Shown one piece after another: positions 35,736 to 41,867 of a stretch of 44,392 bases of DNA. Position numbers and translations under genes: made by a program. Source of the stretch: Fidelibacterota bacterium (GTDB lineage: Bacteria; Fidelibacterota; Marinisomatia; SCGC-AAA003-L08; TS1B11); assembly GCA_020354025.1 (NCBI GenBank), contig CP070638.1:2071150-2115541 (forward strand). The letters are read 5' to 3'. Under the pieces are notes generated by a model, which saw nothing but the letters and a program-made list of their open reading frames with translations, was not told where the DNA came from and searched no databases. Position 1 is the first letter of the stretch; every line of letters starts with the position of its first letter.

Positions 35736-36323
35736 ATGAAGACCCCTAGTAAGTCTCAAGGCCGGAAAAAACAAGCCGCATTGGAACAAGACTGGGTACG
35801 AGACATCCGGGAGGGCAATTCGCGGGCTTTTGAGCGACTGTTCCGCACCTATTGCGGTCCGTTAGTGAATTTTGCTCGGCGTTTTGGTCTAGACCTTCCG
35901 GTGGCGGAGAATATTGTGCAGGATGTATTCCTGAGCGTCTGGACCCGCCGAACGCAGCTTGATCCCGTCGCTGCAATCAGGGCCTATTTATATACTGCTG
36001 TCAGGAATCAAGCGCTCAAGCAGCTGCGCCATGAAAAAGTCGAACAACGCAGCCGAGAGGCAATGTCCACGTCCAGATTGGCAGAAGACACGCCAGAGAA
36101 AAACTGGAGCCAGCAGGAGCTGGCCGGAGAGATTCGATCGGCAGTAGATCAGCTGCCACAACGATGCCGCACAATATTTACCATGAGCCGCTACGATAAC
36201 CTGACATATGGCGAGATAGCCCAAATTCTGGGAATATCCGTCAAGACGGTGGAGACCCAGATGGGTCGAGCCCTCAAGTCCCTTCGCAGCAGTCTATCCC
36301 ATATCCTTGATTCCCTCTCCTGA
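35736..36323 (+). CDS. ECF-type RNA polymerase sigma factor
   Basis: 195 residues. Region 2 about 22-90 (DWVRDIREGNSRAFERLFRTYCGPLVNFA, then VAENIVQDVFLSVWTRR) and region 4 about 135-190 (VDQLPQRCRTIFTMSRYDNLTYGEIAQILGISVKTVETQM) are both complete. It directs RNA polymerase to target promoters once freed by its anti-sigma factor, encoded 148 bases downstream. The ATG lies just after TATAAAAA and has no Shine-Dalgarno, so a leaderless or weakly translated message is possible. Likely targets are the FecR and STN-receptor genes after it. Confidence 0.93.
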   Translation: MKTPSKSQGRKKQAALEQDWVRDIREGNSRAFERLFRTYCGPLVNFARRFGLDLPVAENIVQDVFLSVWTRRTQLDPVAAIRAYLYTAVRNQALKQLRHEKVEQRSREAMSTSRLAEDTPEKNWSQQELAGEIRSAVDQLPQRCRTIFTMSRYDNLTYGEIAQILGISVKTVETQMGRALKSLRSSLSHILDSLS

Positions 36324-36390: not shown

Positions 36391-36435
36391 AACTTGTAGG
36401 GGTATCCTCGATCTGGGGGGTATCAAGGGTATAAT
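36391..36435 (+). promoter_or_regulatory. Candidate promoter region before the FecR gene
   Basis: AAAAAAACTTGTAGGGGTATC is followed by a second GGGGGTATC and by a TATAAT (36430-36435) 37 bases before the GTG start. I recall AGGGGTAT-type elements upstream of fecR genes in Bacteroidetes sigma/FecR loci, so a self-regulated promoter is plausible; this is from memory and unverified. Confidence 0.4.
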
Positions 36436-36471: not shown

Positions 36472-37569
36472 GTGAGCGAACCATCTGATTGGACAATGTT
36501 AGCGCGTTACCTGGCGGGGGAATGTACCGCTCCCGAGAAAACGCAAGTGGAGGCCTGGATGGACTCCGATCCTGAAAACAGACTGCTATTTGAACAGATG
36601 CAGGTTGTCTGGGAAACCCAGGAACAGGTCCAGGAGGACATCGATGTGCGTCAGTTATGGTTGCAGGTTGCCGTCCGGGCTGGTCTGCACGAAGAATCCC
36701 GACTCAAGAGGATTGCCGACCGGCTAAGGGATCTATTAGGCAAGGTGACCGATGAGTGGTGGTTAGTACCATCAGCCACTCCGGCATTACGATATGCCAC
36801 GATTGGTGTACTGGTTGTGGTTATGGCGCTGCTGGTGACACGGTGGACCGGCTGGTTTCCCTGGGACAGCGGCACGCCCCAGCTGACAAGCATCGAGATC
36901 CCTCAAGGGGAGCGGAGTCAAATAGCTTTCAGCGATGGCTCCACTGTCGTTCTGGACGCTGGCACAATTCTGCGATACCCGCAGAAGTTTGCACGCGATA
37001 CACGGGAGGTGTTCCTGGATGGTGAGGGTTTCTTTGAAGTCGCAGCCGATAGCCGCAAGCCTTTCATCGTCCATGCCTCCGATGCCCTCGTCCAAGTGTT
37101 AGGAACCAAGTTCAATGTGCGGGCCTGGGAGCCTGACCAGCGTGTACAGGTAGCGGTATCGGAAGGCCAGGTATCATTGCGCCCGATGTCATCTTCCAGC
37201 GCCAAAGGTGTGATAATCAACAAGGGCGAGGGCAGCATAATGCCGGTGAATGGCCAGCCTACGGAACCGGTGGAAGTCGACATTGATGAAAAGCTGGGTT
37301 GGATGCAAAACGAGGCAGTCTTCAGGGATGTGACCCTGCGAGAGGTGCTCTTTCAGATAGAGCGTTGGTATAACCTGAAATTCGAACTCGCAGTACCATC
37401 CATAGCTGAGGAACGCGTCACACTGCACCTCCGCAGTCACTCAGTGGATGACGTGCTGGAGCTGATCTCCGTACTCGCGGGATTACCTCACAGGCGCGAC
37501 GGCCGGATTGTCCGGCTTGGTCCACAAGACCTGTCACCGGGAGAGACCGAGGAGCAATTAATTGAATGA
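36472..37569 (+). CDS. fecR: FecR-family anti-sigma factor
   Basis: 365 residues from GTG. Residues 1-80 form the cytoplasmic anti-sigma part (LARYLAGECTAPEKTQVEAWMDSDPENRLLFEQM); one membrane helix at about 106-122 (YATIGVLVVVMALLV); FecR domain about 138-240 (GERSQIAFSDGSTVVLDAGTILRYP, GTKFNVRAW); and a C-terminal DUF4974-like secretin-type domain about 278-345 (FRDVTLREVLFQIERWYNLKFELA). It holds the sigma factor inactive and relays the ligand-bound state of the STN receptor encoded next. Confidence 0.93.
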   Translation: MSEPSDWTMLARYLAGECTAPEKTQVEAWMDSDPENRLLFEQMQVVWETQEQVQEDIDVRQLWLQVAVRAGLHEESRLKRIADRLRDLLGKVTDEWWLVPSATPALRYATIGVLVVVMALLVTRWTGWFPWDSGTPQLTSIEIPQGERSQIAFSDGSTVVLDAGTILRYPQKFARDTREVFLDGEGFFEVAADSRKPFIVHASDALVQVLGTKFNVRAWEPDQRVQVAVSEGQVSLRPMSSSSAKGVIINKGEGSIMPVNGQPTEPVEVDIDEKLGWMQNEAVFRDVTLREVLFQIERWYNLKFELAVPSIAEERVTLHLRSHSVDDVLELISVLAGLPHRRDGRIVRLGPQDLSPGETEEQLIE

Positions 37570-37633: not shown

Positions 37634-40276
37634 ATGTACATGCATATTAAAACTCTATCTCTAACCTCGATTCTTCTAGTATACCTGTCGGGCATCAACC
37701 TGACGGGCCAATCGAATCACAATTCCCGGCACCTGAGCCATTCGGACCTGCGATGGGTGCCAGCCTCCCTTATGGCGACCATCACCATAGACTTTGATGA
37801 CACGCCACTAGATCAGGCCTTACACATGCTCGCCATGAAGGGGGATTTAAAGCTGAGCTATAACCGGGATCAGCTACCCCTGGACAAGAGGATCTCGCTA
37901 CAGCTGGAAAGTGTATCGGCAATGGAAGCTCTGCTGCGAGTGGCCGAGCTGACCGGTACAGAGGTGGTAATGACTAACGGGCAACATCTGGCTATAGTCC
38001 CAGCAATCCCGCGGCCCGGATCGGTGAGAGGACTAGTGATTGACATGGAGACAGGTGAGCCGCTTAAGGGCGCCAATGTGCTACTAGTCGGTACCTACCG
38101 GGGTGCGGCAGCGGATCAGGCGGGGCGCTTTGATATCAGGCACGTCCAGCCGGGAACATATACGGTACAAGCCATGATGATGGGCTACAAACCGCGGCAA
38201 ATAACAGAGGTAGAGTATGATGGCTATTCCCCAGTGGACGTCACATTTGCACTGGAACCGACCGTTATTTCACTAAGTGAGATTGTCATCACTCCCGGGC
38301 ATTTCTCCCTGATGGAGGATATCCCCACTACCAAGCATGCTCTCCGTGCGGAGGACATCCGCAGTTTCCCCCAGTTGGGTGAGGATATCTACCGGGCTGT
38401 GAACCGCTTGCCGGGGCTGGCCAATAACGACTTCGCCGCGGGTTTTTACATCCGCGGCGGGCGGCAAAACGAGGTCCTGGTACTGCTGGACGGCATGGAG
38501 CTGTACAATCCCTTCCATCTCAAGGTACAGGATGGATTCATGAGCTTCATTGACGTGGAGGCGATACGCGGGATCGAAATGATGACCGGCGCTTTCCCAG
38601 CTGAGTATGGTAACCGGCTCAGCGGAGTGTTTAATCTGAAAACGATCTCGCCGCAGCCAAATTCCCGGCGAACCTCATTGGCCATCAGCTTCCTGAACGC
38701 CCGTTTACTGACCGAAAACAGCTTTGCCAAAGGACGCGGCCGTTGGATGCTCCTGGCCCGGCGGGGCTATGTCGATCTGCTCCTCAAAGCGGCGGGTCAG
38801 GAAGTTGAGCCTCCTTTCTATTACGATATCCTCAGCAAAATCCAGTTCAACGTGAGCCCCCGACACAGCCTGTCAGCGCACATACTGATTGCTCATGACC
38901 GCTGGGAGGGGACAATGGATGCCTTGGTCGTCAATAACCGTAACGGCAACGGCTACGGCTGGTTGACGTGGTACAGTCAGTGGAGCAGTAGTCTGGACTC
39001 ACGCACATTGATATCCTACGGAGGTTATGATGATCTGCTTGCCATGAACAGTGTTGCGGAAGATGAGTACGAGCCATCCCTGATTATTAATGATAGGAGG
39101 TATCTGCATTTCGTTGGCCTGAAGCAGGATTGGGCCTGGGAGTTATCGGATAACTACCTGTTGAAGTGGGGCTTCAATACCCGGAGGTTCGGCTCACATA
39201 TCAACTATTATCATCGTGATTGGATTATTCTAGGCCAAATAGATACCTATTTTACCAGCGGTTATAATCTCGCCTCCAGGTATCGATTCAAGGATGGCAC
39301 AGAACTCAATGGGTATCTTTCGCAACGAATTCGTCCGCTTGAATCCGTGGCGATCGAGATGGGCCTACGCTACGATAGCAATACCTGGACCCACGATAAT
39401 CACTTAAGCCCCAGGATAAATCTGGCCTATAGCCTTTCTGATAATACAGAGATTCGCGTTGGCTGGGGCCATTATTACCAGACTCAGAGTCTCACCGAGG
39501 GTCTTGGTCTATACAGTGATCCCGAATTCTACGCGGCAGAGAGGGCAGAACATCGCGTTATCGGTATCGAGCATAACTTCCCCGGTGGCCTCCAGCTGCG
39601 GATGGAAGCGTATCAGAAAGTGCTGACCTCGCTGCGACCCCACTATATTACCTGGCAGGAGAGCACCCTCCGGCCCATCGCGATGGTGGATATTGATCGT
39701 CTCAAACTGGAGCCCGAAGGCGGTGAAGCCGTAGGCCTCGAGTTCTATATATGTCGTGAAACAGGCCATCACTTGAGCTACTGGTTGAGCTACAGTCTCT
39801 CCAGGGTACGTGAGAAGGTGGACGGACGCTGGATACCGCGGTACTACGATCAACGGCACACATTCTATGGCGACCTGTCCTGGAAGCCGAACCACAAGTG
39901 GCGTCTGAACGTGGCCTGGCAATATCATACCGGTTGGCCCTACACCGAGGCACAGATCGTGGATCTTCATGAAACATCACCAGGTTTCTGGAGCTGGCAG
40001 TGGAGCCCCGGTCCACTTTATGCCAAGCGGTTTCCCGATTATACACGCTTCGATTTCCGTGTTAATCGGATCTTCTATACCAAGTACGGAAAGGTAACCG
40101 GATTCCTTGAATTCAGGAACCTGCTGGATCAGTACAATCCGCGGAAATATTTGTACTATGGTAGCCCGACCCCTAAAGGTGATGGATCAGACGAAGTAGA
40201 GGTCGGAGTAACACAATATAAATCAGAAGAATGGCTGGGTTTGATGCCCTCCTTTGGGATTATCTGGGACTTTTAG
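37634..40276 (+). CDS. TonB-dependent transducer receptor with STN domain
   Basis: 880 residues. Signal peptide 1-25; STN (secretin/TonB N-terminal) domain about 48-118 (ITIDFDDTPLDQALHMLAMKGDLKLSYN); CarboxypepD_reg-like domain about 128-210; plug about 222-345 (VNRLPGLANNDFAAGFYIRGG, ELYNPFHLKVQDGF, FPAEYGNRLSGVFN); barrel ending MPSFGIIWDF. The STN domain contacts FecR in the periplasm, so this receptor senses its ligand and signals through FecR to the ECF sigma factor. AAGAGG precedes ATG 37634. The ligand is unknown. Confidence 0.94.
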   Translation: MYMHIKTLSLTSILLVYLSGINLTGQSNHNSRHLSHSDLRWVPASLMATITIDFDDTPLDQALHMLAMKGDLKLSYNRDQLPLDKRISLQLESVSAMEALLRVAELTGTEVVMTNGQHLAIVPAIPRPGSVRGLVIDMETGEPLKGANVLLVGTYRGAAADQAGRFDIRHVQPGTYTVQAMMMGYKPRQITEVEYDGYSPVDVTFALEPTVISLSEIVITPGHFSLMEDIPTTKHALRAEDIRSFPQLGEDIYRAVNRLPGLANNDFAAGFYIRGGRQNEVLVLLDGMELYNPFHLKVQDGFMSFIDVEAIRGIEMMTGAFPAEYGNRLSGVFNLKTISPQPNSRRTSLAISFLNARLLTENSFAKGRGRWMLLARRGYVDLLLKAAGQEVEPPFYYDILSKIQFNVSPRHSLSAHILIAHDRWEGTMDALVVNNRNGNGYGWLTWYSQWSSSLDSRTLISYGGYDDLLAMNSVAEDEYEPSLIINDRRYLHFVGLKQDWAWELSDNYLLKWGFNTRRFGSHINYYHRDWIILGQIDTYFTSGYNLASRYRFKDGTELNGYLSQRIRPLESVAIEMGLRYDSNTWTHDNHLSPRINLAYSLSDNTEIRVGWGHYYQTQSLTEGLGLYSDPEFYAAERAEHRVIGIEHNFPGGLQLRMEAYQKVLTSLRPHYITWQESTLRPIAMVDIDRLKLEPEGGEAVGLEFYICRETGHHLSYWLSYSLSRVREKVDGRWIPRYYDQRHTFYGDLSWKPNHKWRLNVAWQYHTGWPYTEAQIVDLHETSPGFWSWQWSPGPLYAKRFPDYTRFDFRVNRIFYTKYGKVTGFLEFRNLLDQYNPRKYLYYGSPTPKGDGSDEVEVGVTQYKSEEWLGLMPSFGIIWDF

Positions 40277-40295: not shown

Positions 40296-40727
40296 ATGAA
40301 CGAGGGAAGCCGGGGTGATGGCAACTTGAATAGTCTGATCCTACTAATCTGTTCCTCCCTGGCCATTTTCCCCTGGCTTTCCCTCTCGCCGGGTCAGGCG
40401 GATAGTACTCTGATCCGGCTGGAACAACTCGGAGGACAGCAAGCCCCTGCAGCTTTGCTGAACAAGATCTTCCTAGAATCTGGAGCCATCACCTTTGGAG
40501 AAGCCCTGAGGCTGATCTCCAAGCATGGCAAGGTGGGGCTGAGCTACAATCACGACCACCTGCCATTGGAGGAGCTGGTATCATTGCCGCTGTCTGAAGT
40601 ATCAGTGCTAGAAGCTCTGCTCCACGTCCTGGATCAGGGCGGGGCAGAGCTGATAATCACTGATAGAGGCGAGATGGTGGTCGTACCCCAGAGACAACCC
40701 AGGGGAGATAACCCAGGGGTGCATTAA
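40296..40727 (+). CDS. Orphan STN-domain exported protein
   Basis: 143 residues from ATG 40296, 19 bases after the receptor stop. After an export signal (NLNSLILLICSSLAIFPWL, about residues 11-29) it carries a single STN-like domain at about 65-135: EALRLISKHGKVGLSYNHDH and LPLSEVSVLEALLHVLDQGG parallel the receptor's QALHMLAMKGDLKLSYNRDQ and LQLESVSAMEALLRVAELTG. It stops where a receptor would continue to its carboxypeptidase-like and plug domains. It may be a truncated receptor copy or a free STN module that binds FecR. The start is uncertain because no strong ribosome site is visible. Confidence 0.72.
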   Translation: MNEGSRGDGNLNSLILLICSSLAIFPWLSLSPGQADSTLIRLEQLGGQQAPAALLNKIFLESGAITFGEALRLISKHGKVGLSYNHDHLPLEELVSLPLSEVSVLEALLHVLDQGGAELIITDRGEMVVVPQRQPRGDNPGVH

Positions 40728-40769: not shown

Positions 40770-41867
40770 ATGTATAAACAAATAATATACGCCGCCATAG
40801 CGGGATTCGTCACCGGGCTGCTATTGACAGGCTGTTCACCCGAGGTGCTCGACAGCGAATATCAGTCGGACTACCCGTTGGCGGAAGAGGAAGGCTTAAA
40901 CGGGAAAGCGCTGGAGTGGCTGGTTAAGGATATTGAAACAGGCAAGTACGGGGAAGTACGAAGCCTGGTGGTCCGGCGTAATGAACGGACCGTGCTGGAG
41001 GAATACTTCAGGGGATACTCACAGGACGATCTGCAACCGCTCCATTCCATCACGAAAAGTGTATTGTCCGCCCTGTTCGGTATCGCCGTTGATCAGGGTT
41101 ATATCGATTCTCTGGACAAGCCGATTCTGGATTATTTCGGGGAGTATGAAACCATCCAGAACGGGGACAGCTGGAAAGAGTCGATCACCCTCCGGCATCT
41201 GCTCAGTATGTCAGCAGGGCTCGAGTGGAACGAGCTGGCGGTGCCCTACAGCGACTACCGCAACGTGTTCAATTCCTGGCGCCGGGCGGATGATGAGATC
41301 AAGTTTGTGCTTGACCGGCCAGTGATCAGCGAGCCCGGCACGGCAGTGAACTACAATTCCGGTCTCAGTCAATTACTTTCCGTGATCTTTACCAAAGAAA
41401 CCGGGCAATCCGCCAGCGATTTTGCCGCCACAAACCTGTTCAATCATCTGGGCATTACGGAATGGACCTGGTCGGCCTCGAACGATTCCATAAGCGACGG
41501 CTACACCGGCCTTCGTCTGCGATCAGCGGACCTGGCCAAATTCGGCCAGCTCTACCTGCAGCAGGGGTCCTGGGATGGAGTGCAAGTGATCCCCGAGGAG
41601 TGGGTGACCGTTTCCACCGACAGTCTAGGGATAATGAGTATCTGGACAAATTACGGCTATCAATGGTGGTGCTACTCCAGCAGAATGGCGGAGTCCGGCA
41701 TGCTGGACAGTACGGGCATTTACTTTGGTGCCGGTTATGGCGGTCAGATTCTGTGGATTATCCCGTATTATGGCATGACAGCTCTGGTCACCGCCGCGAA
41801 CAGCGATGATTTCACTCTGAGCGAAGCCATATTGTGGGAATATCTGCTGCGTATGATCCAGGAATAA
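40770..41867 (+). CDS. Beta-lactamase-like serine hydrolase lipoprotein
   Basis: 365 residues from ATG 40770. Lipobox LLLTGC near residues 16-21. The class-C/DD-peptidase fold motifs are SITK at about residue 92 (catalytic Ser and Lys), YNS near 194 (the YxN motif), and GAGYGGQILW near 323 (in place of KTG). Such proteins act as esterases, peptidases or penicillin-binding-like hydrolases; antibiotic resistance is not implied. The neighbouring orphan STN gene and sigma cassette may make it part of the same regulon. Confidence 0.9.
   Translation: MYKQIIYAAIAGFVTGLLLTGCSPEVLDSEYQSDYPLAEEEGLNGKALEWLVKDIETGKYGEVRSLVVRRNERTVLEEYFRGYSQDDLQPLHSITKSVLSALFGIAVDQGYIDSLDKPILDYFGEYETIQNGDSWKESITLRHLLSMSAGLEWNELAVPYSDYRNVFNSWRRADDEIKFVLDRPVISEPGTAVNYNSGLSQLLSVIFTKETGQSASDFAATNLFNHLGITEWTWSASNDSISDGYTGLRLRSADLAKFGQLYLQQGSWDGVQVIPEEWVTVSTDSLGIMSIWTNYGYQWWCYSSRMAESGMLDSTGIYFGAGYGGQILWIIPYYGMTALVTAANSDDFTLSEAILWEYLLRMIQE

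Follow-up and report, generated by a model that had tools for sequence, protein, structure and literature searches.

Organization of the cassette

The window, a stretch of 44,392 nucleotides, contains a sigma factor gene, a fecR gene, a receptor gene, a short open reading frame for a free-standing STN protein, and a lipoprotein gene, all on the same strand. The features considered here are:

35736..36323, + strand: ECF sigma factor (TIGR02985, 171.8 bits against a cut-off of 126.4; Sigma70_r2 and r4_2; orthologues in the three relatives G001, G002, and G008)
36394..36425, + strand: candidate sigma-dependent promoter, TTGTAGGGGTAT-N14-GTATCA, upstream of fecR, in a block conserved in four genomes
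36472..37569, + strand: FecR-type regulator (PF04773, E 5.7e-18; PF16344, E 8e-12; weak STN match at residues 315-352)
about 37318-37509, + strand: STN-like FecR_C domain of FecR (Pfam)
37634..40276, + strand: TonB-dependent transducer with N-terminal STN signaling domain (SD), CarboxypepD_reg, plug, and barrel (Pfam; the STN match is weak)
about 37772-38005, + strand: N-terminal STN SD of the receptor (Pfam)
40296..40727, + strand: short free-standing STN protein, 143 aa (paralogy, fold, orthologues, selection, clade)
40296..40403, + strand: residues 1-36 of the short STN protein, a probable export signal (each of the four orthologues has a hydrophobic core here)
40464..40688, + strand: predicted STN fold core of the short STN protein, residues 57-131 (AF2 secondary structure and pLDDT)
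40770..41867, + strand: serine-hydrolase-type lipoprotein, the next gene (PF00144, E 5.1e-26; lipobox LTGC by eye)

The original prediction placed the short gene next to a sigma/FecR/STN-receptor cassette, which is borne out by the matches to TIGR02985, to PF04773 and PF16344, and to the Pfam receptor domains. The short reading frame runs from ATG 40296 to the stop at 40727; its start codon lies 19 nt past the receptor stop codon (40274-40276), and 42 nt separate it from the hydrolase gene. The hydrolase reading frame is listed from TTG 40764, with ATG 40770 as the likelier start.

A free-standing STN domain

The short protein had been described as carrying one STN-like domain, paralogous to that of the upstream receptor, and no plug or barrel; each of these points holds. 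BLASTP aligns it with receptor residues 9-123 at 30% identity (E 3e-16), and by this similarity it is a paralogue of the SD of the adjacent TonB-dependent transducer. The Pfam STN model (PF07660) has no match in the window copy and matches the three orthologues below its gathering score (27.7, 23.0, and 21.9 bits versus 28.4), and an NCBIfam search returned no match for the short protein; as it lies under the Pfam cut-off, it would probably go unnoticed in automated annotation. A profile search of PDB sequences gave weak PilQ matches only, so that a fold comparison was needed. The AF2 model, built on 11 aligned sequences, reaches pLDDT block means of 87-94 between residues 51 and 130 (about 90 for the core) and shows the beta-alpha-beta order of STN. 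The best domain-sized Foldseek match is the SD of PupB in complex with PupR (6ovm_B; TMt 0.81, rmsd 2.0 Å), and the SDs of FecA (1zzv; TMt 0.76) and FpvA were also matched; the DotD chains that head the Foldseek list align over longer stretches at an rmsd of 15-20 Å and are poor superpositions. The model has the two beta-alpha-beta repeats, superposable on solved SDs, that define STN structurally, and the short protein is predicted to carry the STN fold.

Neither a plug, a barrel, a TonB C-terminal domain, nor a lipobox was found in the short protein. At 143 aa it ends directly after the STN domain, in contrast to the SD, plug, and beta-barrel of a TonB-dependent transducer, and only 12 residues remain after the last STN strand of the AF2 model, with no TolA/TonB-like domain at the C-terminus.

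An export signal had also been predicted, and this stands in part. Judged by hydropathy only, each of the four orthologues has a hydrophobic N-terminus, with a core of KD 2.85 in the window copy; the n-region of that copy is not ideal, having a net charge of -1 if translation starts at ATG 40296. The n-regions of the G001 and G008 copies are positive, and the G002 copy has an arginine at position 3. Because G001 and G002 lack an ATG at the corresponding position, the true start may lie downstream of ATG 40296. Export is likely rather than certain, since the n-region of the window copy is slightly acidic.

Orthologues, selection, and origin

The short STN gene is intact, with no stop codons, in three relatives: G001 and G002 of the same genus (56% identity) and G008 of another genus (41-45%). 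In all three the hydrolase gene follows directly (66-76% identical), and in G002 it overlaps the short STN stop codon. The gene order sigma-fecR-receptor(s)-short STN-PF00144 lipoprotein is common to these genomes, one assembly being split: the block is contiguous in G002 and G008 and lies in two places of the gapped G001 assembly (sigma, fecR, and the receptor N-terminus in L018; the receptor C-terminus, short STN, and hydrolase in L014). The receptor reading frames of L014 and L018 (849 and 1193 aa) look chimeric and stand beside N gaps, so contiguity cannot be claimed for G001, where the split is probably a MAG misassembly. The G002 locus (bin809, L017:6948-12369) has two tandem STN receptors with one common FecR and one short STN gene.

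Within the genus, dN/dS for the short STN gene is 0.33-0.44 (NG86; dS about 0.9-1.0), with no bootstrap replicate in which dN>=dS, and the frame stays open in 0.4% of neutral simulations at this divergence (indels not counted); pairs with G008 are synonymously saturated and were left out of the selection argument. These values rank above those of fecR (0.13-0.17) and the hydrolase gene (0.09-0.18) and somewhat above those of the receptor SD (0.20-0.24, compared with 0.33-0.39 for the short STN gene). In a tree of short forms and SDs (108 columns, moderate support), the four short forms make up one clade apart from all receptor SDs (support 88/92; 92% of bootstrap trees); this favors a single origin that would predate the genus split.

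Conservation of the short form and selection on it were the checks proposed with the original prediction, which had named a truncated receptor as its alternative. The short gene would then be a decaying receptor copy, a reading suggested by its paralogy to the neighboring receptor and by the tandem receptors of G002, which indicate that receptor duplication happens at this locus. Decay would lead one to expect relaxed selection and interrupted or variable lengths among relatives; instead four genomes from two genera carry an intact short form between receptor and hydrolase, the place where a full receptor in relatives would have refuted the original prediction, its dN/dS is well below 1, and it belongs to a clade of its own. 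Nor is there room for the remains of a receptor ahead of the hydrolase gene, which lies 42 nt away in the window and overlaps the short STN gene in G002. Current receptor decay is refuted by the conserved short form, the selection, and the clade, and as an explanation of the gene it is highly improbable; ancient truncation of a receptor, later put to use, is a likely origin. The short STN gene is under selection and is co-inherited with the sigma, fecR, receptor, and hydrolase genes as one unit; in the preferred reading it is functional, and its product, made of the SD alone, is probably periplasmic.

Distribution of free-standing STN proteins

A profile search of 245 genomes of the phylum recovered the short STN protein in the same four genomes only, the other matches being receptors of these genomes or marginal. 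Within the family (11 genomes), the cognate FecR is present in the four genomes with the short STN gene and absent from the other seven, among them the 96%-complete genome G003, which belongs to the same genus; as the two coincide, the short STN gene comes and goes with the cassette. A second FecR/receptor system, more distant and lacking a short STN gene, is present in G001 and G002 (L015, L019). The receptor of this second system in G002 (L019:4567-7296) is broken by a TAA codon into 688 and 203 aa, through either a recent mutation or a sequencing error.

FecR_C is found in 58 of the 245 genomes. Twenty other FecR_C cassettes of the phylum were inspected; all have fecR and an STN receptor and none has a short STN gene, and the seemingly free-standing reading frames of 280-300 aa within them are none other than the FecR proteins with their STN-like C-termini. 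Since cassettes without the short STN gene are the rule, it is dispensable for this kind of signaling. PF07660 is too insensitive as a detector in the genome of the window and in the phylum, where secretin-sized reading frames dominate and the shortest among the matches listed is 252 aa.

The co-occurrence with FecR bears on whether the short protein acts on FecR at all. It might instead be a soluble partner of another envelope component, such as the receptor SD, the hydrolase, or an unrelated complex; STN folds pair with each other in other systems (PMC11637429), Foldseek finds the fold in secretin N0 domains and DotD as well, and the short protein has diverged strongly from the receptor SD. 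The position of the gene in a sigma/fecR operon, and its occurrence only where the cognate FecR is found, make such a role unlikely.

Outside the phylum, free-standing STN proteins in Bacteroidota were sampled through plasmids only, and tblastn of plasmids with the short STN protein gave no match even at E 5. Hymenobacter volaticus plasmid NZ_CP095062.1 (L149:5471-9893) carries genes for a sigma factor, a head-GIN protein (DUF2807), FecR, a free-standing STN/FecR_C protein, and a protein of 387 aa. No TonB receptor is annotated there, and this is possibly a receptor-less cell-surface signaling cassette. On plasmid NZ_CP141187.1 of Hymenobacter sp. GOD-10R (L157:7209-8645), fecR is followed by the gene for a 478-aa protein whose N-terminal region is STN-like and in which Pfam matches neither a plug nor a barrel. 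From these two plasmid cassettes, free-standing STN proteins beside FecR exist elsewhere; one alongside a full STN receptor was seen, among the cassettes inspected, only in the four genomes with the short STN gene.

A candidate promoter upstream of fecR

The motif at 36394-36425 lies inside a block that is conserved in all four genomes, the flanks of which are not conserved. The pattern TTGTAGGGGTAT-N14..17-GTATYA occurs once in each of the four genomes, always before fecR, and the reversed control gives no match; a looser pattern yields one extra, unrelated match in G008, which is the control level. The motif may be an autogenous sigma-dependent promoter with the short-STN operon as its regulon, and the sigma factor has an apparent regulon of one operon. 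Unlike the region upstream of fecR, that upstream of the sigma gene has no conserved block in the alignment. A scan with promoter and terminator consensus sequences gave matches no more numerous than in shuffles, and no RNA structure was detected upstream of fecR (z 0.37).

A putative brake on FecR

A TonB-dependent transducer contacts its regulator through the SD, which binds the STN-bearing C-terminal domain of the latter; in the PupB:PupR crystal structure the interface is formed by alpha1 and beta2 of the SD, and the Kd is 0.69 µM (PMC7186176). An excess of FecA SD in the periplasm competes for FecR and thereby inhibits induction (reviewed in PMC9249621). Overproduced Fox, Fiu, Iut, and Hxu SDs inhibit signaling completely, and with the SDs of FoxA and IutA the proteolysis of FoxR and IutY is blocked (PMC11637429).

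By analogy to these systems, the short STN protein may be a periplasmic SD-only protein that binds FecR and competes with the receptor SD as a brake or negative feedback, to which we assign a probability of about 0.5. Transcription by the sigma factor would start from the 36394-36425 site and cover fecR and the genes that follow; the short STN protein would accumulate in the periplasm, bind FecR at its STN-like C-terminal domain with the same face as receptor SDs, and keep FecR resting and protease-protected in competition with the receptor SD; and the resulting brake would set the threshold and shut-off of the response. Because the short protein has no TonB box, plug, or barrel, ligand and TonB could not pull it off FecR, and since it cannot respond to ligand, a brake on FecR release is the economical reading. 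For this scheme we infer that the gene is expressed and co-transcribed, that its product is exported and binds FecR, and that the effect is an inhibitory one. A more specific form, in which the short protein is a dedicated, inherited decoy SD, a TonB-uncoupled copy beside the full transducer that locks FecR as built-in negative feedback, is plausible at slightly less than even odds; of the mechanisms considered, the decoy is best supported by the published experiments with overproduced SDs (PMC11637429, PMC9249621).

In favor of a brake are the paralogy of the short protein to the receptor SD, its structural neighbors, which are regulator-binding SDs, its conservation and selection, single clade, close operon spacing, and co-occurrence with FecR, the unique motif before fecR, and the published effects of free SDs. 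Against it stand the atypical n-region of the window copy, the dispensability of the gene, and the invariant residues, which are scattered across the fold with no concentration on alpha1/beta2, so that conservation lends no specific support to that interface. Being only 30% identical to the receptor SD and faster evolving, the short protein might also have a different partner.

A positive role, as an adapter or co-inducer in the manner of VreA, is a weaker candidate: the short protein would relay to FecR a second signal, such as one received from the lipoprotein hydrolase or some other protein of the envelope, and aid sigma release, or would be a chaperone that FecR needs. The hydrolase gene follows in four of four genomes, with the overlap in G002; VreA is itself a barrel-less receptor-like component of a sigma/regulator system (PMC2729926); the PupR periplasmic domain is unstable without an SD partner (PMC7186176); and the Hymenobacter cassette with a free-standing STN and no annotated receptor suggests that STN-only input may exist. 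Unlike VreA, however, the short protein lacks a second signal-receiving domain and is accompanied by a full receptor, and overproduced SDs were inhibitory in every system tested in PMC11637429. Action as a brake remains the preferred reading.

Comparison with known systems

The closest described protein is VreA (PA0674) of the PUMA3/Vre system of P. aeruginosa (PMC2729926), which is exported, as the short STN protein probably is, and like it has an STN domain resembling transducer SDs, has no barrel, and is encoded beside genes for an ECF sigma factor and a FecR-type regulator. VreA stands in place of the receptor and ends in a TolA/TonB-like domain, whereas the short STN protein consists of the STN domain and a short tail and is added to a complete transducer. 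It has one of three VreA-type features (a barrel-less STN with a probable export signal beside a sigma/regulator pair) and lacks the second domain and the role of sole receptor; it is not a VreA-type receptor. The original claim that such a function had not been described needs narrowing, as VreA is a known, mostly soluble STN protein and the only case of a free-standing STN of this kind met in the open-licence literature; an extra free-standing STN beside a full STN receptor in one operon was not found there.

The overproduced or proteolytically released SDs of FecA, FoxA, FiuA, IutA, and HxuA (PMC9249621, PMC11637429) are free periplasmic SDs, as the short STN protein probably is, with neither plug nor barrel; they are plasmid constructs or receptor cleavage products, whereas the short STN protein is the product of a separate, conserved gene with its own lineage. 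FecIRA-, Pup-, and Fox-type cassettes share with the window the sigma-fecR-receptor arrangement and the N-terminal STN of the receptor, and the 20 others in the phylum do so without a short STN gene. The free-standing STN/FecR_C protein of Hymenobacter volaticus (L149:8089-8673) is also short and exported-looking and is encoded directly after fecR; it has 194 aa and a Pro/Gln/Arg-rich tail, in a cassette with no annotated receptor.

What is new here is a barrel-less SD that stands as a fourth component next to a complete transducer; it probably works like a free SD. According to the recently revised view of how receptor SDs hold and release FecR-type regulators, the SD already sits on the anti-sigma factor and shields it before any signal arrives, and signaling is blocked by free SD; this view is based on overproduced or cleaved domains, and the brake or tuner effect has so far been seen with artificial SD overproduction in E. 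coli and Pseudomonas. The host considered here is a bacterium of the candidate phylum Neomarinimicrobiota. If the proposed role is correct, a natural free SD under selection beside a full receptor would independently parallel the overproduction experiments in a natural setting, and the short STN protein would be an unrecognized fourth component of cell-surface signaling systems.
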